A stretch of 22,873 bases of DNA. Source: a virus. Below are positions 1 to 22,873 of this stretch, piece after piece. Position 1 is the first letter of the stretch. Every line of letters begins with the position of its first letter. The stretch lies in the IMG/VR virus record IMGVR_UViG_3300031973_000729, positions 1-22,873 of that record; one strand, 5' to 3'. A model generated the notes under the pieces. That model was not told the origin of the DNA. It worked only from the letters and a program-made list of their open reading frames with translations, and did not search any database. A program made the position numbers and the translations under genes.

Positions 1-282
1 AGTTGTAGTAGTCCCTAAAGTCAATTCTCTTAGGTGTCTTAATACTTTCCAATCAGTATCCCTTAAGAACTTTGAAGCTTTCTCATTAATCTCTTCTTGT
101 GTTATCTCTGAGTCCTTAATGTTAAAGGCACCATCAACGTACTCTAGGTACTGTGTATATGGGTCAAACTGAGGTATCTCACCCTCAGCCCACTCATACC
201 CTTCTTCTAGCATCCTTTCGTCAGCCTCCTGTCCAGCTAAACTTAGGACTCTATCTCCATCTTTTAGTATATATATTCCCAT
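1..282 (-). CDS. Tail-fibre assembly chaperone-like protein, partial (N-terminal 94 codons)
   Basis: The frame is open from an ATG at 282 to the left edge with no stop, so only the first 94 residues are visible. An AGGAG (complement of 288-292) lies 5 nt upstream of the ATG and supports this start. The protein begins MGIYILKDGDRVLS, has an acidic middle, and then carries EINEKASKFLRDTDWKVLRHLRE. That last stretch resembles the '(L)R-x-TDW-x-(V/L)-R' helix common in small tail-fibre assembly chaperones encoded just downstream of phage fibre genes. The position immediately after the 1196-aa fibre gene fits a role in folding or trimerising that fibre. The family call is by motif and context only; it could also be a small structural protein. 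Confidence 0.55.
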   Translation of the reverse strand, partial: MGIYILKDGDRVLSLAGQEADERMLEEGYEWAEGEIPQFDPYTQYLEYVDGAFNIKDSEITQEEINEKASKFLRDTDWKVLRHLRELTLGTTTT

Positions 283-291
283 TTATTCTCC

Positions 292-3200
292 TTAATATGG
301 TAGTTCAAACTGCATAGGGGCATCTACAGATTGAGTTGAACCCAACCTAACGCCATAGTGCCCATTATAGCCCCAAGCATACATCTCACCTTTAGTGGTC
401 TTAGCTACATATACTCTACCATCAGATGTAGTCTGAAAAAACCCAAGTTTATCTATACCATCAGGTAGTTTAGCTTTAGTCAGACTCCTAGTGTTATCTC
501 TATGTCCTACTCCTAATATACCATTTACGTTGTACCCACACCCATAAAGGTATCCGTCCGTTTTTTTAACAAATAATTGGTTATTAGATGAAGACACATC
601 TGTAGTAAATCCTGAACTTAAAATCTCACTAACACCTGTAGCTACTGACACCTTTGTAGACCTATTTGTTGCTGAACCATCACCTATTTGTCCATGGTTA
701 TTATATCCCCAACCTACTAGAGTGCCATCAGTATATAATACATGAGATGTCATAGCTGAACTAGATATTTGCTTCACGTTAGTTTCAGACAGTCCAGTTG
801 GTTTTAGAGGTGAGTTCCTTTGCACATTCGTACCATCACCTAATTGGTTATAGTTGTTAGACCCTGAAAGCCTAATCCTATTACTAGAGCCAGACTTAAG
901 CCACATCATCACGTGACCATATCCCCCATTATGCTGGTGGAACATTCCTTGTATATCTTGTATCTCCCATCCTGACCCCCAGTTAGCTGATACATTTATA
1001 AAACTATTCTGTTGTGTAGTATTTCCAATGCCAAGCCAACCTTGAGCATTAGAACCACAAACCCATATAGAGTTATCTGTCTTCTGAACGAAAGTACACC
1101 CAACATGGCACCCTAAGTTCCATAAGTTTTTAACTGAAGTCCCTAGTGCTGTTATCTTGTTCCAGCTTACCCTACGTGTAGTGTCCCCTAAACCCAAAGC
1201 ACCATTCGCGTTGTATCCACAGCCATATATGTAGTTATCTGTTTTCTTAATGAATAGCCTATTCTGACTAGCAGTAACCCCTGAGTTTGTTCCATGATGG
1301 TAGACCTTCACAACATTTGAGGCTGAAAGTGTAGGTGTAGGTACAGCTGTAGTATGTCCTAAACCACATTGACCATGTGTATTTAATCCCCAAGTATATA
1401 GTTGTTTATTCTCTAAAAGGGCAAAAGCCACAGAACTACCTAATACACCAGCATCTATAACAGGACTAGTAGAAGGCATTGGTACCCTAGCGTAGTTACT
1501 AGTACTAAATCCTGATATACGACCATGTAGTCCTCTACCTGATGTGTAATGTACATTGGTACCAGCAGTACTATATAGTTTTCCATCTTTTACTATTAAG
1601 GATGAGTTGTACCCTGAGTGATTAATAAAAGTAACTCCTTTTCCTGTTATTGAGTCTCTTACAGCATTAGCCTCGCTTAAAGCCTTATCATAAGCTGTCT
1701 TAACAGCCTTACTTGAAGCACTTACTGAAGTACTTGAGCTAGTTACACTATCACTTATAGACCTTTGAGTGTTAGTATCTGTAATCTTAACCCCAATATT
1801 AGTAAGCCATGACTTAAAGGCTGTACTATTCATTGTCCTAATGTAATTGTCCGTAGTACTATTCCTAAAGGCTATGTCAGCTGAAGTTGATGGAGCTGTA
1901 GTTTGCTCACCAAAAGTTGACCTAAATAATCTAGCTGTAATATCCCCTGAAGAATCTCGTCCAGCTACTGTGTCCTTTGTAGCACTCGTAGACCTTTGGT
2001 GTCCATCTAAAAGGTCAGCATCAAGTCCACTTCCTGAACCATCAACTGTCTTAAGCTTATTAAGAATATCAGTAGCATCATTGTCAAGCCTTACCCAAGG
2101 TTTCCATGAAGACGAATACCAAGCTCTTGCATAGACGTGACTCTCATGATAAGTAGTATACCTTTGATATACCATAGAGCCATCCGCATATACTTCCAGT
2201 AGCCCAGCTAGGTACTCAGGGTAGTTTGAGCCACCTGAGGCATTGGTATTAGAATTTTGGTGATACCAACCCGTTGTCTTGAAGTTGTTTAGGTCTAGGT
2301 CATTCCCTATGTCAGCCTTCTGAGCATACATAGCAGACCCATGAATACCATCTACCATGTCAGCATCAATACCTGAACCTGACCCATCTACAGTCTTAAG
2401 CTTATCTCTAACCTGTATAGCAGTATCAGGACTACCATCAGCTCCTGCATTACCTGTATTACCTTTAGGTCCTTGAGGTCCTGTAGCACCTTGACTCCCT
2501 GTGTTACCTTTAACACCTTGAGCACCTTGAGGTCCCGTAACACCTTGAGGTCCTGTAACACCTTGAGCCCCATCTGTACCTTTTAATGAAGCTAACCAGT
2601 TAGATATTGTACCTGTGTTACCTGCATCAAGCCATGTCTCATAGGCATCTCTACCTTCTTGACCTCTAGGTCCAGTTGCACCAGTGGCTCCAGTATTACC
2701 CTTAGGTCCTATAGCTCCTGTACTACCTTTAACTCCTTGAGGTCCAACAGCACCAACAGCTCCAGTAGAACCTTTAGGTCCAACAGCTCCAGTAGAACCA
2801 GTGTAACCTTTAACTCCCTGAGGTCCAACAGCACCAACGGCACCAGTAGCACCAGTTATACCTTGTAATCCTCTAGCTCCAGTATTACCAATAGGTCCAA
2901 TAGGCCCAACAGCTCCAGTAGAACCTTTAGGTCCAGTAGGGCCTTCTGCTCCAGTTAATCCTGTACTACCTTTAACTCCTTGAATACCCCTAGCTCCAGT
3001 AGAACCAGTGTCACCCTTAGGTCCTATAAGCCCTATTGGTCCAACAGCTCCAGTAGAACCTTTAGGTCCAACAGCTCCAGTAGAACCTTTAGGTCCAGTT
3101 ATACCTTGAATACCTACTTCACCTTCAGCACCCTGAGGTCCAATAGCTCCAGTATTACCTGTGTTACCTTTAAGCCCTATTGGTCCTATTGGTCCTGTAT

Positions 3201-3882
3201 CTCCTTTAAGTCCTTGAATACCCTGTAGTCCAGTAGAACCTTTAGCTCCCGTAGAACCTTTAACACCTTGGATACCCTGAGGTCCAATAGCTCCAGTTAT
3301 ACCAATAGGCCCAATAGCTCCAGTAGAACCTTTAGGTCCAGTTGCTCCTTGAATACCTTTAACTCCTTGGATACCTTGAGGTCCAGTAGAACCTGTATTC
3401 CCTTTAGCTCCAGTTAAACCTATGATACCTTGGATACCTTGGGGACCTATGTCACCCTGAGGTCCAATAGCCCCAGTATTACCTGTACTACCCTTAGGTC
3501 CAATAGGTCCAATAGCTCCAGTAGAACCTACAATACCTTGGATTCCTCTAGCTCCAGTAGAACCCTTAGGCCCAATGTCTCCAGTAGAGCCTTTAGCTCC
3601 AGTTGCTCCTTGAATACCTTGAATACCTTGAGCACCCTTAGGGCCTATAGCTCCAGTAGAGCCTTTAACTCCTTGGATACCTTGAGGGCCTATAGCTCCT
3701 CTTTCAGACATTACTGCCCATGGTGAGTTAGCACTTGTAGGTGTAACTCCCTTGGGTATACTTGTTGATGTCACATATGATGCACCATTATAAGTTACGA
3801 CTGTCATACCTTCGTAGGCCTTCAGTGCGTTCCATTCTCCTTGTAAGCTAAATCTTACTTTACCAATCTTTATTACTGCCAT
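292..3882 (-). CDS. Large tail fibre protein: collagen-like stalk, pyocin-knob-like domain and RCC1-type beta-propeller tip
   Basis: This 1196-aa fibre is the likely receptor-binding protein. Residues 1-61 form a small N-terminal domain with W/Y-rich strands ([15 protein letters not shown], then NSPWAVMS) like those in many phage fibres. Gly-X-Y repeats run from 62 to about 411. They are broken by a known collagen-interruption motif ([22 protein letters not shown], 413-434) and resume from 435 to about 483. Two KTVDGSGSG(I/L)DAD(M/L)(V/L)DG elements (496-512, 611-627) flank a pyocin-knob-like domain (about 534-600, TGWYHQ...WKPWVRL). A linker (about 640-765) leads to RCC1-type repeats with cores at 828, 885, 939, 1004, 1055, 1112 and 1167, for example [15 protein letters not shown]. 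Spacing is 51-65 residues, giving seven blades. GGAGG lies 10 nt upstream of the ATG, inside the end of the preceding gene. Fibre identity is strong; receptor specificity is inference. Confidence 0.88.
3041..3094 (-). repeat. Perfect 27-bp tandem duplication in the collagen-coding region
   Basis: A 27-bp unit occurs twice back to back (3041-3067, 3068-3094) and encodes nine residues (GPKGSTGAV) repeated in the fibre stalk. Near-identical copies recur elsewhere in the stalk, for example around 2770 and 2905. Identity at the DNA level, including third positions, points to recent slippage or recombination. Confidence 0.85.
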
Positions 3883-3884
3883 TA

Positions 3885-5582
3885 TTAATATACCTCCACG
3901 TATAAATTACCATCTGCATCTATAATAAAATCATCAGGGTTTGCTTCACCATAATGTTCTACAACTAAATCACCTTCTGCATCTATCTTAAAAGAGCCAA
4001 AAGCCATAGGAAGGGCTGTAGGTCCCATAGGTCCTTGGTTTCCATCAGGTCCTTTAACACCCATACCACCTTGAGGTCCTTCTATACCTTGAGTACCTTT
4101 AGGTCCAATAGGTCCAATAGGTCCTAAAGGCCCAACAGGTCCCTCAACTCCAGTAACACCTTGAATACCTCTAGGTCCTTGGTCTCCAGTAAGTCCTTTA
4201 GGTCCAATAGGCCCTTCTATACCTTGCTCTCCAATAACACCCTGAGCTCCAGTTAAACCAGTATCTCCAGTAAGTCCTTTAGGTCCTACAGGTCCTTCTA
4301 TACCTTGTTCTCCAATAACACCCTGAATACCTCTAGGTCCTTGGTCTCCAATAAGTCCTTTAGGTCCTACAGGTCCCTCTATACCTTGTTCTCCAGTAAT
4401 ACCTTGTTCTCCAGTAATACCTTGTTCTCCAGTTAATCCTATAGGTCCTATTGGTCCTTGAGCCCCAGTGTCACCTGTAAGTCCTTTCTCTCCTCTAGGC
4501 CCTTGAGCTCCAGTATCTCCAGTAATCCCTTGAGGCCCTTCTATACCTTGCTCCCCAGTAATACCTTGAGGTCCTATTGGTCCTTGAGAACCAGTCTCAC
4601 CTTTGTTACCTTGAGTTCCTTTATCTCCAGTGTCACCTGTGATACCTTGAATACCTCTAGGTCCTTGTTCACCAGTAAGACCTTGTTCACCTTGTTCACC
4701 TGTTAAACCTATTTCACCTTGAACTCCAGTTGGTCCTAAGTTACCCTGAGGACCAATAACACCTTGAGCTCCAGTTGGTCCAGTTAGACCTATCTCACCC
4801 TGTAACCCTTTGTCTCCTACTACTCCTTGAATACCTCTAGGTCCTTGAGCTCCAGTAGGTCCAGTTAAACCTATCTCACCTTGCTCACCTTTGTCACCAA
4901 CAGCTCCTTGAGCTCCAGTAATACCTTGAGGTCCTATAGGCCCAGTTAAACCTATCTCACCTTGTAAACCTTTATCTCCAGTAACACCTTGAGGACCAAT
5001 AGCCCCAGTTGCTCCTGTATCTCCAGTTAAACCTTGTTCTCCTTGGAGTCCTGTTTCACCTCTAGGTCCTTCAACACCTTCAGGTCCTATAGCCCCTGTC
5101 TCTCCAGTAGCCCCAATAACACCTTCAGGTCCTTGTAAACCTGTCTCACCTTTAGGTCCTCTAATACCCTGAGGTCCTCTAATACCTTGAATACCTTGTT
5201 GTCCTTGCTCACCAGTCGGACCTGAAGGTCCTAAAGCTCCTTCAGGTCCAGTTGCTCCAGTTGGTCCTTGAGGTCCTTCTGATAGATAGAAAGTAAGCCT
5301 ACCTGTGTCTTTACTGTACTCTGAGTAACCCTCTGAGCCATAAGGAAGTCTAACTAGTGTTGTCTCTAGACCTGTAAGCTCATTCTGTATTTGAATGATA
5401 TTAAGCATCTTCTCAACCCACTCTTTATTAGTAGCATCAGTCTGAGCTATAGGTTCCTTTACGTTCTTTAAAAGTGAGTCTTCAAAATCTACTGTGTTAC
5501 CTTGTTCAGTATTAACCATTCTAACAATCTTAGCGTTACCAACACCTGTATTAACGTTACTACCAAAGGCTTCATTCATCAT
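3885..5582 (-). CDS. Collagen-like fibre or virion appendage protein
   Basis: This 565-aa protein has an N-terminal non-collagenous domain (1-102), which probably anchors it or mediates trimerisation. It is followed by about 140 uninterrupted Gly-X-Y triplets (103-522). The 43-residue C-terminal cap holds two related motifs, [13 protein letters not shown] and [13 protein letters not shown], of a type often seen closing phage collagen-like fibres. The stalk is rich in Glu and Asp (GEQG, GEIG, GDTG, GDKG), unlike the Lys-rich stalk of the next fibre. The start is the first of two adjacent ATGs. It overlaps the amidase stop by 4 nt (ATGA) and has AGGAG 8 nt upstream. Gene position is that of a tail fibre or fibre adaptor. 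Because the other fibre also lacks a T7 gp17-type N-terminus, this protein may connect to the tail, but that is inference. Confidence 0.82.
4383..4437 (-). repeat. 18-bp tandem repeat, about three copies, in the acidic collagen stalk
   Basis: The 18-bp unit ACCTTGTTCTCCAGTAAT (plus strand) occurs perfectly at 4383-4400 and 4401-4418, and with one inserted base that extends into the following codon at 4419-4437. It encodes repeated GEQGIT hexapeptides. Exact synonymous-site identity suggests recent expansion. Confidence 0.88.
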
Positions 5583-6001
5583 GAGCAGAACTCCTGTAAG
5601 TATTCCTCAACATTAAAGTTAGGGCAACTCTTAGAGCTATACTCATAGTGTCCCTTGATGTCATCGTTAGTTAAGTTGAATACCACTTTAAGTCCATTAA
5701 GTAAAGACTTAAGTGACTCTCTTTGTTTATCTGTGAACTTATCAACACCTATTAAGCATATACCAATAGTATTTCTATTATGACCACTACAGTGAGCCCC
5801 CATCTTTTCAATAGGTCTCCCTGCTTCTATGAAGCCGTCATCACTTGGAGTATCCTTACCCTTATCCCTAAAACCATTAAGAATTACATAGTGATATCCA
5901 ATACCTGACCATCCTCTTTCCTTGTGCCATTGGTCTATATCTGAAGCATCCCCAAAAGAGGAGGCTGAGCAATGTATAAGTATTTCTTTTATCTTTCTCA
6001 T
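5579..6001 (-). CDS. N-acetylmuramoyl-L-alanine amidase, T7-lysozyme type (endolysin)
   Basis: This 140-aa protein is a single Amidase_2 domain close in length to T7 gp3.5 (151 aa). By alignment of motifs, the zinc ligands are His10 (in LIHCSAS), His118 (in KGHYEY) and Cys126 (in KSCPNF). These match T7 His17, His122 and Cys130. The catalytic pair is Tyr36 (GYHYVI) and Lys124, matching T7 Tyr46 and Lys128. The QWHKERGW segment matches T7 QWHKEQGW. Function: cleaves the amide bond between MurNAc and L-Ala in peptidoglycan to release progeny. There is no signal peptide, so a holin encoded elsewhere would be needed. AAAGGA lies a few nt upstream of the ATG. In T7 this gene is in the DNA-metabolism region; here it lies among late virion genes, so it may act mainly in lysis. 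T7 lysozyme also inhibits the phage RNA polymerase; whether this one does cannot be seen. Confidence 0.95.
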   Translation of the reverse strand: MRKIKEILIHCSASSFGDASDIDQWHKERGWSGIGYHYVILNGFRDKGKDTPSDDGFIEAGRPIEKMGAHCSGHNRNTIGICLIGVDKFTDKQRESLKSLLNGLKVVFNLTNDDIKGHYEYSSKSCPNFNVEEYLQEFCS

Positions 6002-6012
6002 ATTAATCCTTT

Positions 6013-9000
6013 CTATCTACCATCTGCCTCTTTATTAAGTGAGTTTAAGTACTCAGAAATAAGAGGCAGTGACATTCCAATCCCTATATTTGACTTAAGG
6101 GCTGTACCTATTCTTGAATCCCACCTCATGTCTCCATCTTCAACCATATCAGATAAAGCGTGGGCTCCTTTGATTCCTGAGGCTATCCTACTTGTAGATG
6201 CACCACCAAGGATATCTTCTAGTCCTCTAGCTCTGTAATCCGAACCAAGACTCTCCATACCCATAAAGTACTTCCCAAGGTTAGCCATATATGTACCTGA
6301 GCCCAACACTGAGTTACGAGATACTGCATAGCCTACAAGGTTCTGAATACCATCTTCTGTAGTTACATCATACTTTCTATCTTTCTCTTTGATGTTACCT
6401 AAGGCTATGTTTGCCTCTTCTCTTAGTAATACTATAGAAGAAGTTAAACCTAGTGAGAACATAAAACCTGCTACTCTCTTTGCATCCATCTCTGAGTACC
6501 CTCTACGTAATAACTGACCGTGTGATGCCATAGTCCATCTCATGAACTGTGTGAATAACCTAGTTGGGATAGCATTACTATCTTGGAACTCTAAAGGTAT
6601 ATGGGCTTGCTCACCCCTTAGGATGGCACTTCTAACTCCTTGGTTCATACTAATCTGAAGCTTATCTCTAAGCCCTGAATCCCATTTATCTAAATCAGGA
6701 ATCTTATATCCATCAGTCATCTTCCATGGTTGTTTACCAAAGGCTTTAATGTCATCCGCAGATAACCCTAACTTACTCCAGTATCTCTCTTCTACTTTAG
6801 ATAGAGTACCTCCTTCTTGTAAGCTGTGAGCCTTTCTCATTAAGTTCTTAGTCTGAGCCAAAGCAAATACCATCTCTGAACCACCTGTTATAGATGAAAG
6901 ACCTGAGTATTTAGTAGTAACCTGTACACCTTTATCAAGTAACTGTTCAAACTTAGATGTTCTGTATTGGTAATCAGCATCCACATAACGTGATGAAATC
7001 GCATTATCATAGAAGTCTGAAGCCATTCCTAAATCATCTACAATGTATTTCATAAGTTCTGTATCCCTCATATTTCCTTTAAACATTCTAGGTACTTCTT
7101 TTAGTATAGGTAACGCTGTAAGCATATTCCTAACACCTGTATCTGCTACAATAACTCCAAATTCACCAAATGCATTTAGAGCCATAGCCCATCCTGTAGT
7201 TGAGTACCCCACTTTGTTAAACATTCTCATGAAGTTAGACCCGAAGCTCATGGGCTCTGTATTGTGGGTATGGGTAATAGCTTTGTACATTCCTTTAATC
7301 AGTTCAGCACTCTTTTTAAGGTCAGCTTCACTAATACCATTCTCTGATGCATACTCACTCATTTCATTGAATAGATGTTGCATATCATCAGAACTCCTAA
7401 TACCTACAGCCTTAGCCATTCCTATACGTCCTGCTGTGCCTACATGGTACTTACCAATCACAGCTGAAATGTCAGTATTATATAAAGGCATGGCTAGGTC
7501 CTGTCTAACTTCTATAGTTCTACCTCTAAGTGAGCCTGACATACCTACTACCTTCTCTGACTTAAGCTGTACCTTAGTTACATTCCTAACTATAGCCTCA
7601 GCATCTTTTCTAAGTAAGGCATTAAGGTTAGCTACAGACTCACCTGTCTCTTGACTAGTTCTGTAAATCATGTTCCTATTTAGGGGATGCCCTATCATCG
7701 CTTCGTACATAATCTGACCTGCTCTAGCCTCTCCTAAAGCCTCTAGTTTACGCACTGAGAACTGTTTAGGTAAGTAGTTTTGGAGTCCATTAATAAGTCC
7801 TGCATCAACTGCTTCATCCATCATCTCATTGAAGTACTTTTGTACCGCTCTAGCTGTTGGTGAAAGTGGTGCTTTATCCACACCCTCATAGTTCTTAGCC
7901 ATCTCTTCATAGATAGACTCATGGAAATCTTCTTCTTTTAACGAAGGGTCAGCCTGTTTAGCCTTTAAGTACCCTCCTTTAATTTCTCTATTAACCTTCT
8001 TGTGTTTATTATCTAAGGCATAAACATAATCATAAGCTGTCTTTCTACCTTGAACTACAGCTTCTCCTGCTCTGTTAACTACAGCTACAGTTGGTTTAAT
8101 TACAGCCTGAGCAAACGCCCTAACATAAGGACTAACATTTGCGTGTAACCTGTCAGCTACAGATATGGCTCCTCTTTGAATGATAGTGTTAGCAATCTCT
8201 TCACCACTCTCTATTCGTTCTTTAATATTTCTAATATCATTAGGATTGTCAGGTTTAGGTTTTTCATCAACTTTAGTAGTGCCTTTTAGATTACCTAAAG
8301 TCTTATCTAATGAGACACCCTCTACAACATCTTCTTCTAGTAAGTTATAAGAAGTATCTAACTCAGGCTCTACCTCGGGTTCACCCTCAATCTTTGCATT
8401 AGCTGTGTACTGTTCTGCTGTAGGTCCTTCAGTCTCCTTATTGTTCTTTATCTCTTCTATACTAGCCCTATCAATCTTCTTGGCATCTTTCTGTACCCTC
8501 TTCTGAGCACCTTTTCCTTTACCACCCTTACGATTACCTTGCCTCTTCACTAACCGAGCCCCTAGCCTGTCTAATGACCCTTGAACAAGTGTATCTCTAT
8601 TCATGATAGATTGTGCTCTTTCAGCTCTATTAGTATAGTTACCTGTAGTGTACTTTACAGCCTGTTTAGTCTGCTCAGGTGTGAATGGTGTCCGTGCTCC
8701 ATTTGAAGGTACTATTTGTTCAGGGTATTGTTTCATTAAGTCTTTATAAGGCTTAACTACCTCAGTTGGAAGCTTATGTCCATTCTTAAGTGCTTCCTTA
8801 ACCATCTTCCTATGAGCATACTCTGCCTCAAAGCCTTTGTCTGAATAGAACTTAAAGTGGTCTAAGTCAGGGTCTAAGTTAGTTACTCTACTTTGTCCTT
8901 TCTTCCCTTTTGAAGCTAGTTTAGCCCTTGGTTTATCAGGAGCAACATATGAATGCTTATAGTTATCAATCATGTGTTCTATCTCGTGCCTGATAGTACC

Positions 9001-10203
9001 CATAGTAGACCCCTCAGGTAAGTTCATCTTAAAGTTTCTAGGGTCTTCTCCTAGTTTCCATGTGTACTGTACTGAACCTGAAGCCCCTTGAGTTGACTGA
9101 GTTGTTACTTCTACATCATTACCCATCTTTTTAGCATAGTGCTGAACGATAGCCTGAGTATCATTAGTGTCAATACCTTCAGCTTGTAATCTAGATTTTA
9201 TTAACTCCTCAATATCTGCCTCACCTTCTATAGACCTAGAGTTAGGATAAGTAGCCTTAAGCTCCTCTACAGTTGGTATACCTGTAAACTCATTATCAAT
9301 ATTAGGGGTTGGCTGAGCCTGAAAGTCAGGATTATTTAAAATAACATCAGTACTTGCATTTCTATTCCTAACTACCATATCCTCAACAGAACCTATACCT
9401 CCACCGATGGCAAGACCTAAAGTACCTGCAATAAGGTAATCAGTGTCATCTCCTGTCATAGTCTGTTGTTGATGTACATACTCACTAGCAATACTCTCAG
9501 CCATTGCAACACCACCATATTGGTACTTCTTAGGTACCTTACTTAATGATAGGCTTAAGGCTTCATATGCCTGTACTTTCTTATTAAAGTTAAATGCATT
9601 ATAAGCTTTCTTAGTTAATCCTAAACCACCTGTAGTAGCTATTAAAGCTAAGTCCACTGGGTCTGTAATCATTTGACCTACAAATAACGAAGCCTGTCCC
9701 TTAAAGCCATGCCTCATAACCTGTTTCATTCTCTCTTGGTAATGTTTAGACCTATTCAGTAAAGACTGAGCGTGTCTAGCATTCTTGGCTTCTTCCATGA
9801 TATTCTTTTGAACTTCCATAGGTACATCAGCCATGCCTTCTAATAGGTCTGTATCCTTTGTAGCATCATAGCTCTCATCAACCTCATTCCCGAACTCAAT
9901 GTCAGGTGACTCTGAATCATACAGTGGACTGATAGCCCCTGCTAAAGGTTTCCAAAAGTCAGCATCTCTAGCTTCTTTTGCTTTGTCCTCTTCCATTTGT
10001 AAAAGTTTATCACCATGTCCTGATAGGTCCAAAGGCATCTCTGTAAGAGCCTGTGGTTCAACTTCAGGTTGTGGTTCAACTTCAGGTTGTGGTTCACTCT
10101 GAATCAAAGGCTCAGGTGCCTCTACAGGTGTCTCAAGAAGAGGTGTTAGTTCCTCCTGTTGGTCCATGTTATTTTGTCCTAAAAGGTTTTCTTCCTCTTC
10201 CAT
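6013..10203 (-). CDS. T7 gp16-like internal virion (ejection) protein with an HExxH motif
   Basis: This 1396-aa protein is the last of three ejection proteins, as gene 16 is in T7 (1318 aa). Features resembling gp16 include a hydrophobic segment at about 170-200 (ITDPVDLALIATTGGLGLTKK), an Ala/Gly-rich stretch (256-272), a conserved helix region (about 995-1045, with ALPILKEV) and a C-terminal segment (about 1213-1265). The T7 lytic transglycosylase domain is absent; the N-terminus is acidic, with Pro-Glu repeats (37-51). Instead HEIEH occurs at 406-410, followed by a candidate third zinc ligand near 459-461 (FEAEY), the pattern of a gluzincin-type protease. A Lys/Arg-rich stretch (549-576) may contact DNA. 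Likely role: part of the trans-envelope channel for genome entry. GGAGG lies 7 nt before the ATG, overlapping the previous stop. Family assignment is good; peptidase activity is inference. Confidence 0.85.
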   Translation of the reverse strand: MEEEENLLGQNNMDQQEELTPLLETPVEAPEPLIQSEPQPEVEPQPEVEPQALTEMPLDLSGHGDKLLQMEEDKAKEARDADFWKPLAGAISPLYDSESPDIEFGNEVDESYDATKDTDLLEGMADVPMEVQKNIMEEAKNARHAQSLLNRSKHYQERMKQVMRHGFKGQASLFVGQMITDPVDLALIATTGGLGLTKKAYNAFNFNKKVQAYEALSLSLSKVPKKYQYGGVAMAESIASEYVHQQQTMTGDDTDYLIAGTLGLAIGGGIGSVEDMVVRNRNASTDVILNNPDFQAQPTPNIDNEFTGIPTVEELKATYPNSRSIEGEADIEELIKSRLQAEGIDTNDTQAIVQHYAKKMGNDVEVTTQSTQGASGSVQYTWKLGEDPRNFKMNLPEGSTMGTIRHEIEHMIDNYKHSYVAPDKPRAKLASKGKKGQSRVTNLDPDLDHFKFYSDKGFEAEYAHRKMVKEALKNGHKLPTEVVKPYKDLMKQYPEQIVPSNGARTPFTPEQTKQAVKYTTGNYTNRAERAQSIMNRDTLVQGSLDRLGARLVKRQGNRKGGKGKGAQKRVQKDAKKIDRASIEEIKNNKETEGPTAEQYTANAKIEGEPEVEPELDTSYNLLEEDVVEGVSLDKTLGNLKGTTKVDEKPKPDNPNDIRNIKERIESGEEIANTIIQRGAISVADRLHANVSPYVRAFAQAVIKPTVAVVNRAGEAVVQGRKTAYDYVYALDNKHKKVNREIKGGYLKAKQADPSLKEEDFHESIYEEMAKNYEGVDKAPLSPTARAVQKYFNEMMDEAVDAGLINGLQNYLPKQFSVRKLEALGEARAGQIMYEAMIGHPLNRNMIYRTSQETGESVANLNALLRKDAEAIVRNVTKVQLKSEKVVGMSGSLRGRTIEVRQDLAMPLYNTDISAVIGKYHVGTAGRIGMAKAVGIRSSDDMQHLFNEMSEYASENGISEADLKKSAELIKGMYKAITHTHNTEPMSFGSNFMRMFNKVGYSTTGWAMALNAFGEFGVIVADTGVRNMLTALPILKEVPRMFKGNMRDTELMKYIVDDLGMASDFYDNAISSRYVDADYQYRTSKFEQLLDKGVQVTTKYSGLSSITGGSEMVFALAQTKNLMRKAHSLQEGGTLSKVEERYWSKLGLSADDIKAFGKQPWKMTDGYKIPDLDKWDSGLRDKLQISMNQGVRSAILRGEQAHIPLEFQDSNAIPTRLFTQFMRWTMASHGQLLRRGYSEMDAKRVAGFMFSLGLTSSIVLLREEANIALGNIKEKDRKYDVTTEDGIQNLVGYAVSRNSVLGSGTYMANLGKYFMGMESLGSDYRARGLEDILGGASTSRIASGIKGAHALSDMVEDGDMRWDSRIGTALKSNIGIGMSLPLISEYLNSLNKEADGR
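10052..10098 (-). repeat. 18-bp repeat encoding Pro-Glu repeats in the gp16-like N-terminus
   Basis: The 18-bp unit TGTGGTTCAACTTCAGGT (plus strand) occurs at 10052-10069 and 10070-10087, with a partial third copy from 10088. It encodes PEVEPQ repeats near residues 37-51. The segment looks like a flexible, low-complexity linker. A shorter EPEVEPE occurs again near residue 608. Confidence 0.85.
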
Positions 10204-12566: not shown

Positions 12567-13125
12567 TCTTTATCCTCCTAATCTTTTGGTCATAGAACTT
12601 ATCACCACCACCTGTGCTCATACTTTGTCCCATTGAGTAGCCTTGGAGACCACCTTGGACTGCACTAACAAGTAATCTACTACTACCTCCTGCATTTGCG
12701 TAGTCAGTCTGAGCATTTCTTATTCTACCCATAGCTGTTACATTAATCTTTTCAGTCTCTCTTGTAGTCTGAGCTTGGGAGTTCTCCCAGTTCTTATTAA
12801 TAGAGCCCTCATCAAAGTTCTCATTAAAATATGATGTATTGAATAACCTATCTATAGTATTACCATTAGCACCTTTATTATTAACTGTCATGGTTGCTCT
12901 TTCTCTTAGAGCCTCACGTTGTCTCTGTAACTTAGCATCTTGAGCTTGTCCTGAAATCTGTTCAGACTTCTCACGTTGTGCATTAAGGTCAGCTATCTGA
13001 GCATTCTCAGCATTCTTCATATTTACTTTAGCTGTGTTTCTCTGTGCCTTCTGTTGTGCCTGCATTGATGACACTGACATAGCCATGGAAGCAACAGCCA
13101 TTCCTATACTCACTGGTTCACACAT
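12553..13125 (-). CDS. T7 gp14-like internal virion (ejection) protein
   Basis: At 190 aa this matches T7 gp14 (196 aa). It starts MCEPVSIGMAVASMAMSVSS, a Met-Cys start followed by a short hydrophobic, Ala/Ser-rich helix, as in gp14 relatives. A Gln/Ala/Asn-rich amphipathic helix follows, then a Gly/Ser-rich C-terminus (SSRLLVSAVQGGLQGYSMG) that could insert in membrane. In T7, gp14 forms the outer-membrane portion of the ejection channel. The ATG lies inside the end of the gp13-like gene (8-nt overlap, ATGTGTGA), with AAGGAGG about 9 nt upstream. Gene order 13-14-15-16 supports the assignment. Confidence 0.85.
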   Translation of the reverse strand: MCEPVSIGMAVASMAMSVSSMQAQQKAQRNTAKVNMKNAENAQIADLNAQREKSEQISGQAQDAKLQRQREALRERATMTVNNKGANGNTIDRLFNTSYFNENFDEGSINKNWENSQAQTTRETEKINVTAMGRIRNAQTDYANAGGSSRLLVSAVQGGLQGYSMGQSMSTGGGDKFYDQKIRRIKSENR

Positions 13126-13597
13126 TTATATAATCCTCCTTATATAAGTAGAACTGTTCAAAAGGTTGCTCATTTAACCACTTAGTACTCTCCATAAAGT
13201 CAAAACCTATAGACTTTAACCATTTCTTAGATTGCTTATTCTCAGACCATACTTGATTAGTTAATAAGTACATTTCTAAGTTATCAAAGCAATAGGTAAA
13301 CAACCCATATGTAAGGGCGTTAACAGTGAATAAGTGGTCTTTAACAAACGTATCTGTTGACAGTAACCATGGTATTCCTATACCTTCTTCTTCAGGGTGA
13401 GGTGTAATTCCACCAACCCCTACTACAACATCATCTTCAACTGCAAACCATGTAGTCAAAGATACCTCTAAGCTCTGTGATAGAGCCTCTGTTGGAGTCA
13501 GTCCTGTTGCATGAGTTAATTCCTCCTGCTCAACTGCTCCTATTTCTAACTTAAGGACTCTCTCTTTATCCTCTTTTGTATATAAATATACTTTCAT
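13118..13597 (-). CDS. T7 gp13-like protein, GNAT-fold (DUF2833 type)
   Basis: This 159-aa protein is placed and sized like T7 gp13 (138 aa). The segment SLEVSLTTWFAVEDDVVVGV (42-61) followed by GIPWLLSTD (74-82) matches the '(S)LEVS...W...GVPWMLGTD' pattern of the DUF2833 family. Its C-terminal half, with NQVWSENKQSKKWLKSIGFDF (114-134), matches the T7 gp13 stretch VGNTSHIRFLKTIGAVF. This is the acceptor side of a GNAT acetyltransferase-like fold. In T7, gp13 is needed for virion morphogenesis, and no acetyl-transfer substrate is established to my knowledge. The ATG is 1 nt after the preceding stop, with GAGG 10 nt upstream, so coupling to the gp12-like gene is likely. Confidence 0.82.
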   Translation of the reverse strand: MKVYLYTKEDKERVLKLEIGAVEQEELTHATGLTPTEALSQSLEVSLTTWFAVEDDVVVGVGGITPHPEEEGIGIPWLLSTDTFVKDHLFTVNALTYGLFTYCFDNLEMYLLTNQVWSENKQSKKWLKSIGFDFMESTKWLNEQPFEQFYLYKEDYINV

Positions 13598-16068: not shown

Positions 16069-17367
16069 CTACACGCTCATCTTTAATCTGTAAGTATTCA
16101 CAGGGTTCCCTGCTGTTACCTCAGGTAATTCATCATTGTTAACTAGCCTAGATACAGATGTACTATTCATCATTGATTGAGCAGGTAAAGCATGACTAGC
16201 ATTAGCCTTAGCTCTCATAACCATTTGCCTATCTATAACGTATCTTCTAGGGTCTCTAATAGCTGAAGGTTGGTGAATAAATGTAGCTCTATACTTAGCA
16301 TACGTAAACACCGCCTCGGGGATATCTGAATCTTGTACACCCTCTTCTATAGATAATTCAGTCTTAACTTCATTTAATACTCTTTCATATAAAGCTTTTG
16401 GTGTTATTAAGTTAACTATAAGTGCTGACTCAGCTCCTGCTAGGTCTTCTACTGTAAATGGTCTATCATCTGTTTGTGGTATTAAAGTAGCTTGTAGCCT
16501 CCACATAGTTAAGAACAAGATATGCTCTTTCATTAATGCTGTTTGCTCACTAACCGTGTAACCGTAAGTTGCTGTAAATTCAGCTTCAACTTTAAGGTAT
16601 AAGTCTTGTGGATATAATTTGTTAGTAACTAACGCCATCCTAAAGTCAATCTCATCTTGTGACTTCTCATCTTGTGATATAACATAATCATCTACACTAA
16701 GTATTACTTTTTGTAACTCCCATGTAGCCATTACTTTAATTAACTGAGAGGCATCATCCATAGACGTAACATCTATAGGTATAGCCCCTGTGAATCCATA
16801 CCTTGAGTAGTAGTCATCTCTAACCCTTTTAATGATATGTAAAGGTACATTCCTAGTAAGGATTAAGTTCTTCTTATAAGACATTAATTGTCTATCCACT
16901 GCCTCAGCACTTAGTACATACTCTTCAGGTTTACTAAACATAAGGCTTTGGAACTTAAGAATCCCTAAGTTATCCTTTAATGATTTAGGTATCTCTGACC
17001 TATCAAAAGGCAACATAGCCTCTAACTCTTCATCAACTTCAAGTAGTAAAGCTTTTGGTATTAGTTTCTTTCTAATTAAAACTCTCTTAGAGCTTAACTC
17101 ATCTTCTTGTGAAAACTGATGTAGTATCTCTGAGCCTACATTACTAGCTTGGAATTTGCGAACAGCTCTAACCACGCATAGGTTGTATACCTCAGGAGGC
17201 ATCTCTTCATAATTAATATTGAAATCTTCACTATTATAAGGTAACTCAGTTAACACAAATTCAAGTGTAGATTTAGCCATTAAAGCCTGAGGTTCCGTTA
17301 AATCAGTCACCTGTTCTTCTGCAACACTTGCTAATATTATATTAACAGCTTCTAATATTTTTGACAT
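16069..17367 (-). CDS. Tail tubular protein A (T7 gp11-like adaptor), enlarged by tandem repeats
   Basis: This protein sits in the gp11 position but has 432 aa against 196 in T7. The first 90 residues match T7 gp11: EAVNIILASVAEEQVTDL (6-23) to SAVNDILASIGEPPVSTL, FNIN (49-52) to FNIE, and EEMPPEVYNLCVVRAVRKFQ (54-73) to DEMPECFRYWIVTKASRQF. T7's intervening segment between these matches is absent. The remaining 340 residues contain four related units of roughly 70-80 residues. They start near 97 (LIRKKLIPKALLLEVDEEL), 168 (LILTRNVPLHIIKRVRDDY), 246 (LVTNKLYPQDLYLKVEAEF) and 316 (LIVNLITPKALYERVLNEV). The adaptor ring joins the portal to the nozzle. An AAGGAG lies 4 nt before the ATG, just past the capsid terminator. 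Confidence 0.85.
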   Translation of the reverse strand: MSKILEAVNIILASVAEEQVTDLTEPQALMAKSTLEFVLTELPYNSEDFNINYEEMPPEVYNLCVVRAVRKFQASNVGSEILHQFSQEDELSSKRVLIRKKLIPKALLLEVDEELEAMLPFDRSEIPKSLKDNLGILKFQSLMFSKPEEYVLSAEAVDRQLMSYKKNLILTRNVPLHIIKRVRDDYYSRYGFTGAIPIDVTSMDDASQLIKVMATWELQKVILSVDDYVISQDEKSQDEIDFRMALVTNKLYPQDLYLKVEAEFTATYGYTVSEQTALMKEHILFLTMWRLQATLIPQTDDRPFTVEDLAGAESALIVNLITPKALYERVLNEVKTELSIEEGVQDSDIPEAVFTYAKYRATFIHQPSAIRDPRRYVIDRQMVMRAKANASHALPAQSMMNSTSVSRLVNNDELPEVTAGNPVNTYRLKMSV

Positions 17368-21756: not shown

Positions 21757-22794
21757 CTAGAAATCATCAAATCCACTCACAGCTGATGACTGATTGTATG
21801 CCGTATTGTTACCCTCAAAGAAGTTACCTTTAGATGAACCTTCACCACCAACATCAGCAATCTCTTCAAGGTGCTTATATGGATTATGTGTTACTTCAGG
21901 ATAAGGTAAAGGCAATCTAATAGCTTTAGCTCTCCTATTTGCTAAGTGTTTTGTGTATTGTTCCGTAGAAGCCTCTGAGATACCGAGGATGTTATTCCCT
22001 AGTATGTGGTTAGACCAAGTTACTTCTTGCTCTACAGCCACGCTGAACATATCCTGTATCCATTCTTTATCAGCACCATTAACATCACATATCTCTTTAA
22101 TCAAATGTTCAAAGATTATTACGTGTGTAAGTTCATCTCTATTGATTAGTTTAACAATCTCAGCAGTACCATTCATAAGTCCTCTATTAGCTAAGCCATA
22201 GAAGAACTGAAAGCCATTGTAAAAGTAAAGACCTTCTAGTAAATAATTAGCCACTAGAACTCTCTTAAAGTTCTGCTCAGTCTTGTTGTCTAAGTAATCT
22301 TGGAATACTTGGGCAATGTACTTTACACGCTTTAAAAGGATAGGGTTATCCCTCCATAGGTCATACAGGTAATCACGCTTCTCAGGTGGTAGTATGGACT
22401 CTATGATGTACTGATAGCTCTGACTATGAACAGCCTCTTGGTAAGTCTGAATAGAAAGTATTAGATTTACTTCAGGTGCTGTTATTACAGAACTAATATT
22501 AGGAACATTAGCTGTTTGCATTGAGTCAAGAAATATAAGGAAACTTAAAGTCCCATCATAAGCTGTCTTCTCATCTTCTGTAAGCAAAGGATAAGTGCCC
22601 TTATCACTTGTTATATTGTTCTTTTCAGGAATCCAAAAGTTCTCCATCATCACTCTATATAGCTTGTTAGCCCAAGTGTACTTTACGTTGTTTAGGTTCA
22701 TAATATTAGTAGTATTACCATTGATTAATTGCCTAGCCTCTTTACTATCATCTCCATTTACATTTAGTAATAGTTTATCCTGCACAAGATTCAC
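21757..22794 (-). CDS. nrdB: Class I ribonucleotide reductase, small (radical) subunit
   Basis: The protein has 345 aa from the GTG at 22794. It carries the full di-iron set by alignment with E. coli NrdB: Asp90 (FLDSMQ), Glu120 and His123 with radical Tyr127 (EAVHSQSY), Glu187 (LLEGLYFY), Glu221 and His224 (RDELTH). These match E. coli D84, E115, H118, Y122, E204, E238 and H241. The C-terminal tail ends SGFDDF, the likely peptide docking into NrdA. It generates the tyrosyl radical for reduction of ribonucleotides to deoxyribonucleotides, feeding phage DNA synthesis. An ATG 33 nt upstream (22827) is in frame, but GGAGG sits 6 nt before the GTG, so the GTG is preferred; it overlaps the nrdA end by 20 nt in another frame. 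Two stops in a row (TAG TAA) end the gene. Confidence 0.96.
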   Translation of the reverse strand: MNLVQDKLLLNVNGDDSKEARQLINGNTTNIMNLNNVKYTWANKLYRVMMENFWIPEKNNITSDKGTYPLLTEDEKTAYDGTLSFLIFLDSMQTANVPNISSVITAPEVNLILSIQTYQEAVHSQSYQYIIESILPPEKRDYLYDLWRDNPILLKRVKYIAQVFQDYLDNKTEQNFKRVLVANYLLEGLYFYNGFQFFYGLANRGLMNGTAEIVKLINRDELTHVIIFEHLIKEICDVNGADKEWIQDMFSVAVEQEVTWSNHILGNNILGISEASTEQYTKHLANRRAKAIRLPLPYPEVTHNPYKHLEEIADVGGEGSSKGNFFEGNNTAYNQSSAVSGFDDF

Positions 22795-22873
22795 AACTAG
22801 CCTCCTCTTTTGAAACACTATTTGCATCCTTCTGTACGTACCTAATGTAGTAGATAGTCTTAATCTTTCTAGT
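22775..22873 (-). CDS. nrdA: Class I ribonucleotide reductase, large (catalytic) subunit, C-terminal end only
   Basis: The frame is open from the right edge to TAA at 22775-22777, giving the last 32 residues. These include KTIYYIRYVQKDANSVS and end SCESCAG. KT-(I/L)-YY-(I/L)-R is the usual last strand of NrdA. The final Cys-x-x-Cys pair is the redox shuttle that relays electrons from thioredoxin or glutaredoxin to the active site. The following gene is nrdB, confirming the assignment. Its last codons contain the nrdB ribosome-binding site (AAAGAGGAGGC), so translation of the two subunits is linked. The rest of the gene lies outside the window. Confidence 0.9.
   Translation of the reverse strand, partial: TRKIKTIYYIRYVQKDANSVSKEEASCESCAG
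22801..22807 (-). promoter_or_regulatory. Ribosome-binding site of nrdB, inside the nrdA coding end
   Basis: GAGGAGG on the minus strand lies 6 nt before the GTG at 22794 and encodes part of the NrdA tail (KEEAS). It decides the nrdB start over the in-frame ATG at 22827, which has no comparable site at proper spacing (only AGAAGG directly before it). Confidence 0.8.

Follow-up and report, generated by a model that had tools for sequence, protein, structure and literature searches.

The distal tail fibre protein of a T7-like podovirus, P0001, ends in a region that, by its sequence and predicted structure, is an RCC1-type beta-propeller, a fold whose best-known examples are eukaryotic regulators. 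We consider it quite likely that this region (residues 749-1196) serves as the receptor-binding tip of a collagen-stalked fibre made of two proteins, P0001 forming its distal half. Its receptor-binding role is suggested by its position, by its modularity and, by analogy, by precedent.

Organization of the Phage Record and the Fibre Genes

The window, i.e. the whole stretch of DNA analysed, is a 22.9-kb virus record that reads on the minus strand and is probably a fragment of a phage genome. T7-type virion proteins are encoded in order (Gp10A-like, Head-tail_con, Tube, Phage_nozzle and T7_gp14), with capsid, portal, tube, nozzle and internal virion proteins arranged as in Autographiviridae. Judged by these genes, the phage is a short-tailed, T7-like podovirus (Autographiviridae-type). 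The T7-type virion genes (connector, capsid, tube, nozzle and gp14) are followed by genes for large proteins, an amidase and the fibre. Searches with the portal and nozzle proteins returned no close relative of the phage, and the search with the capsid protein returned two, neither of which has an RCC1 match. The L021 contig stops within the first fibre gene.

Several other genes of the window were noted. The gene for a ribonucleotide reductase small chain (21757-22827, minus strand; PF00268, 5.2e-71) adjoins the head genes, while that for an N-acetylmuramoyl-L-alanine amidase (endolysin-like; 5579-6001, minus strand) lies between the gene for a 1396-aa protein and the fibre genes. The tail tube protein (16069-17367, minus strand) has 432 aa, and its Tube family match is confined to residues 52-98; the tube protein of L030, a relative, has 446 aa, and T7 gp11 has about 196 aa. 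The tube protein of the window may be enlarged or duplicated. Finally, the product of 13118-13597 (minus strand) has a weak acetyltransferase-like match (PF13302, 0.006) and falls into the PHROGs class of internal virion proteins.

The fibre region comprises the following features:

1..282, minus strand: P0003, of which the window contains the N-terminal 94 aa, probably an assembly chaperone of the tail fibre (weak tail match to phrog_8716, 0.005)
292..3882, minus strand: distal tail fibre protein P0001, 1196 aa, an intact ORF with collagen, pyocin-knob and RCC1 domains
295..1467, minus strand: seven RCC1 repeats of P0001, R1-R7, residues 806-1196 (PF00415/PF25390; mutual homology; about four strands each in the models)
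1468..1638, minus strand: R0, residues 749-805, a conserved segment at the N-terminal end of the tip, with 3-4 strands (family conservation; predicted strands)
1669..1758, minus strand: phage tail fibre repeat, residues 709-738, a neck ahead of the tip (PF03406, 7.9e-4, just below the cut-off)
2050..2352, minus strand: pyocin-knob-like domain, residues 511-611 (PDB 6cl5, 6ct8 and 6cl6, 1.5e-14; tail-fibre PHROGs)
2428..2580, minus strand: second collagen segment, residues 435-485, 17 triplets by count
2581..2646, minus strand: residues 413-434 (22 residues), which break the G-X-Y register of the collagen rod
2647..3699, minus strand: collagen rod, residues 62-412, 117 uninterrupted G-X-Y triplets (PF01391, 6.6e-61)
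3697..3882, minus strand: probable N-terminal adaptor of P0001, residues 1-62 (matches to Roseobacter phage, HTVC024P and Fussvirus N-termini)
3885..5582, minus strand: P0002, probable proximal collagen fibre protein, 565 aa (PF01391, 1.3e-67; C-terminus like CRP-114 gp41 and CRP-125 gp39)

A collagen rod and a pyocin-knob-like domain had already been proposed from the sequence-only reading of this DNA, and both are borne out by the matches listed, those of the knob being to tail fibre structures of R1/R2-pyocins. The minus-strand placement of the fibre gene (292-3882) corrects that earlier reading. P0001 combines a tail-fibre gene position with several fibre domains (collagen, pyocin knob and fibre repeat).

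The adjacent protein, P0002, consists of an N-terminal region, a run of 140 G-X-Y triplets without interruption (residues 103-522) and a conserved joining segment at the C-terminus (residues 523-565). Against Pfam it shows no match to PF03906 and no recognised anchor domain; CRP-114 gp41, which it resembles at the C-terminus, carries the T7 fibre anchor (PF03906, 1.8e-31). The N-terminus of P0001 is 34-43% identical to that of the protein whose gene lies immediately downstream of the anchor fibre gene in CRP-114/CRP-125, HTVC024P and Fussvirus S30C28. Neighbouring genes of the Roseobacter phages CRP-114 and CRP-125 match the P0002 C-terminus and the P0001 N-terminus, and in Pelagibacter phage HTVC024P and Fussvirus the genes matching the P0001 N-terminus occupy the corresponding position. 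From these matches, P0001 is probably the distal half of a two-protein fibre in which P0002 is the proximal collagen fibre, and residues 1-62 of P0001 probably join the two. P0003 is 24-34% identical to proteins encoded after the RCC1 fibre genes of L048 (Phage_tail_APC, 3.6e-13) and L051, and is probably a tail fibre assembly chaperone, an assignment made from weak identity and for a gene incomplete at the window edge. The fibres of CRP-114 and CRP-125 share with the present one the proximal and distal collagen proteins, the joining segments and the gene order with the assembly chaperone next, but have unrelated tips with no RCC1 repeats.

RCC1 Repeats and Predicted Structure of the Tip

The earlier description of seven repeats with a G-x-N core in the C-terminal part of the fibre is confirmed by Pfam, by motif counts and by profile comparison. 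In HMM searches, RCC1-family models score far above their cut-offs: the tip matches WD40_RLD/RCC1-like (PF25390) at 6.8e-60 and 203.7 bits (cut-off 150), RCC1 (PF00415) in seven stretches at 1.3e-30 and RCC1_2 (PF13540) at 6.2e-19, the latter two also above cut-off. The repeats R1-R7 begin at residues 806, 856, 916, 971, 1033, 1082 and 1141, and their G-x-N motifs at residues 832, 889, 943, 1007, 1059, 1116 and 1171, i.e. with a spacing of 52-64. A strict G-x-N-x2-[GN]-x2-G-x-G pattern fits six of the seven motifs, compared with 0.01 expected in shuffles; the seventh motif, 11 residues long, deviates from it. R1-R7 also detect each other as profiles (hhalign, most pairs >90%), and among proteins of solved structure UVR8, HERC and RPGR are related to the tip in sequence. 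With the family cut-offs passed and seven homologous repeats of about 50-60 residues, the tip is, at the level of its sequence, an RCC1-like (RLD) repeat domain.

The domain searches also bear on whether the propeller could be an enzyme, such as a polysaccharide-degrading tailspike domain, rather than a binder alone. Degradation of surface glycans is common among phage tips, and enzymatic propellers exist; against this, no depolymerase family was matched in the searches and, to our knowledge, RCC1 propellers have no hydrolase activity. We therefore regard an enzymatic tip as very unlikely.

An AlphaFold2 monomer model of the tip, built on an alignment of 23 sequences, has a pLDDT of 87.4 and a pTM of 0.88. 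Its secondary structure consists of seven four-strand runs, preceded by four short strands at residues 750-771. UVR8 is the best Foldseek match in the PDB (E 2e-27, TM 0.61/0.72, of which 0.72 is target-normalised, rmsd 4.9), while among phage models an uncultured Caudovirales RCC1 protein (TM 0.91), Littlefix (0.88) and PollyC (0.85) were found. The tip model thus fits the phage models better than the UVR8 structure, and its fit to solved seven-blade RCC1 folds is moderate (TM about 0.7). When the N-terminal group is removed (residues 804-1196), model confidence is about unchanged (pLDDT 89.8, pTM 0.87) and the fit to UVR8 is slightly worse (0.64/0.67, rmsd 5.6).

Of the closed seven-blade propeller that had been proposed, an RCC1-like propeller with seven four-strand blades is what the model predicts, whereas closure as a plain seven-blade ring is put in question by the 3-4 extra N-terminal strands and by the TM and rmsd values of the UVR8 match. 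With the strands of R0 added to its seven blades, and with a fit to seven-blade folds that is only moderate, the modelled ring may have eight positions, or else seven blades that the extra segment closes or caps. R0 is conserved across the fibre-tip family and resembles a blade weakly; it could be a degenerate eighth blade or a closure or cap. We do not claim it as a plain eighth RCC1 repeat: a single-blade HMM scores 10.6 bits on R0 of P0001, a value reached by 1% of its own shuffles, and in most relatives the scores are near shuffle level (hhalign <=26%). We know of no eight-position RCC1 propeller, composed of seven RCC1 blades and a divergent N-terminal blade, as a fold variant, and of no N-terminal R0 segment in the propellers of UVR8, HERC, RPGR or RCC1. 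Since R0 belongs to the tip, the latter starts near residue 749 (about base 1638) and not at base 1530.

Relatives of the Tip

The tip finds a match in 51 of 50,697 phage records, 29 of them over at least 80% of its length, and is most closely related to as yet uncharacterised tips of fibres from other phages. The fibres of the T7-like Pseudomonas phage PollyC and its relatives Ppr_SeaP1-4 (Autographiviridae) end in the same RCC1 subfamily, PollyC gp38 and the SeaP proteins being 31-34% identical over nearly the full length of the tip. Unlike P0001, these single-protein fibres join a T7-type anchor (weak match to PF03906) to an alanine-rich stalk, with no collagen match and no pyocin knob noted. 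In the Schitoviridae phage Littlefix, the same tip family is found on a tail protein, gp88, which differs from P0001 in belonging to another phage family and in being a 1365-aa protein without a collagen match. A collagen stalk with an RCC1 tip also occurs in metavirus L047 (IMGVR_UViG_3300043436_003929), whose fibre carries collagen repeats and a C-terminal RCC1 tip (38% identical), but which is 2239 aa long with several further domains and a Ser/Thr-rich collagen. UVR8, HERC, RPGR and RCC1 share the repeats and the fold of the tip; they are cellular regulators with seven blades and about 20% identity to it.

Three further arrangements were observed. L048 encodes three tandem RCC1 tip proteins (5241-9967), each with a short N-terminal region; a Phage_tail_APC chaperone gene comes after the three, which are possibly a set of alternative tips. 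In the propeller of the SeaP1 fibre (L017:8822-11524), a stretch of roughly 35-40 residues is duplicated in tandem almost exactly; according to the alignments, SeaP4 does not have this duplication. The viral contigs L007, L009 and L008 (G003-G005) have 28 RCC1 repeat matches each, spread over several ORFs of about 380 aa, and their RCC1 proteins form a separate RCC1 group.

In a tree of 56 RCC1 domains, 12 of which are fibre tips, the latter form one clade (100/97) apart from the sampled bacterial and other viral RCC1 proteins; the bootstrap had not settled completely, and the sequences outside the clade came from hits to the same query. This clade is relevant to the view that DNA or chromosomes are the target of the RCC1 domain, in condensation or packaging. 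PHROGs places the RCC1 families 4219, 7220 and 16766 under DNA metabolism, and the study of phage W70, whose virion contains three RCC1 proteins by mass spectrometry, repeats the suggestion that such proteins help package DNA (PMC11370258). The W70 virion data are, however, also compatible with a surface role. In P0001, moreover, the domain shares one polypeptide with collagen, a pyocin knob and a tail-fibre adaptor, and tail fibre proteins from other phages fall within its clade. Given this fibre context, a role in DNA condensation is rejected here as highly improbable.

Exchange of Tips on a Shared Adaptor

Among viral contigs, the 72 complete metaviral genes with the adaptor start fall into 23 C-terminal clusters, at least three of which are RCC1 and most of which are not. 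In CRP-114, the same two-part fibre carries a different tip, and the matching distal proteins end in tips other than that of P0001. A variable C-terminal tip on a conserved N-terminus, as in receptor-binding fibres, is thus found here. The phage L029, whose capsid protein is 67% identical to that of the present phage, has a collagen fibre that ends in a glycine-rich stretch and lacks RCC1 repeats. In L274, L210 and L238 the adaptor is linked to other, more distant RCC1 domains (confirmed by Pfam), and RCC1 tips have therefore probably been joined to the adaptor more than once. The many unrelated tips on one adaptor support a swappable receptor-binding cassette, and the P0001 tip is probably such an exchangeable host-recognition cassette.

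The same comparison addresses the alternative that the propeller is mainly structural, a fibre cap or folding domain, with the host being recognised elsewhere, for example by the pyocin knob. Pyocin knobs are indeed folded fibre domains, and fibre C-terminal domains often help trimerisation. Yet it is the C-terminal tip that varies among adaptor-sharing phages, and a monomeric propeller would be a poor trimerisation clamp. A mainly structural role is thus unlikely, and we favour the receptor-binding tip.

Proposed Function and Precedents

In the fibre that we propose, P0002 would anchor the structure to the tail, and its C-terminal segment would bind the 62-residue adaptor of P0001. The collagen parts, which as collagen imply trimers, would form triple helices. 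A collagen triple helix rises 0.286 nm per residue, and the computed lengths, if triple-helical, are about 100 nm for the P0001 rod, 15 nm for its second segment and 120 nm for P0002, together up to about 235 nm. At the end of each trimeric fibre, three propellers would bind with avidity to a structure on the cell surface, probably a glycan. P0003 would aid folding of the fibre, and tips would swap between phages as cassettes, RCC1 being one of many on the same adaptor. A further-reaching reading, which we hold tentatively and regard as rather doubtful, sees the tip family as an RCC1 propeller with eight positions that acts as an exchangeable, lectin-like cassette for receptor binding, three to each collagen whisker of about 235 nm.

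Precedents exist for parts of this arrangement. Gp45 of Staphylococcus phage phi11 bears a propeller on each of its three monomers, with the stem trimeric and a GlcNAc-sized cavity as the proposed receptor site (PMC4901313). It resembles the proposed P0001 trimer in using propellers as a trimeric receptor-binding platform (PMC4901313), but its propellers are five-bladed and non-RCC1 and its triple-helical stem is alpha. The eBAP3 fibres of eCIS combine beta-propeller lectins with collagen-like shafts; unlike the present fibre they belong to contractile injection systems, and RCC1 is unmentioned in the paper (PMC12923769).

In the open-licence literature we found no paper on an RCC1-tipped phage collagen fibre or on an RCC1 tip as a receptor-binding propeller. 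The design is less singular than first suggested, in view of the PollyC and Ppr_SeaP1-4 tips and of collagen with RCC1 in L047. The parts are known and similar tips have been deposited, while the combination and the tip clade appear to be undescribed.

The finding connects RCC1 propellers with probable host recognition by short-tailed phages. A role in chromosome or DNA condensation is the common annotation for RCC1 proteins of phages, whereas the fibre-fused clade more likely binds cell surfaces. If this is true, many phage RCC1 annotations would be open to rereading, and a little-studied class of binding domains would be open to testing.
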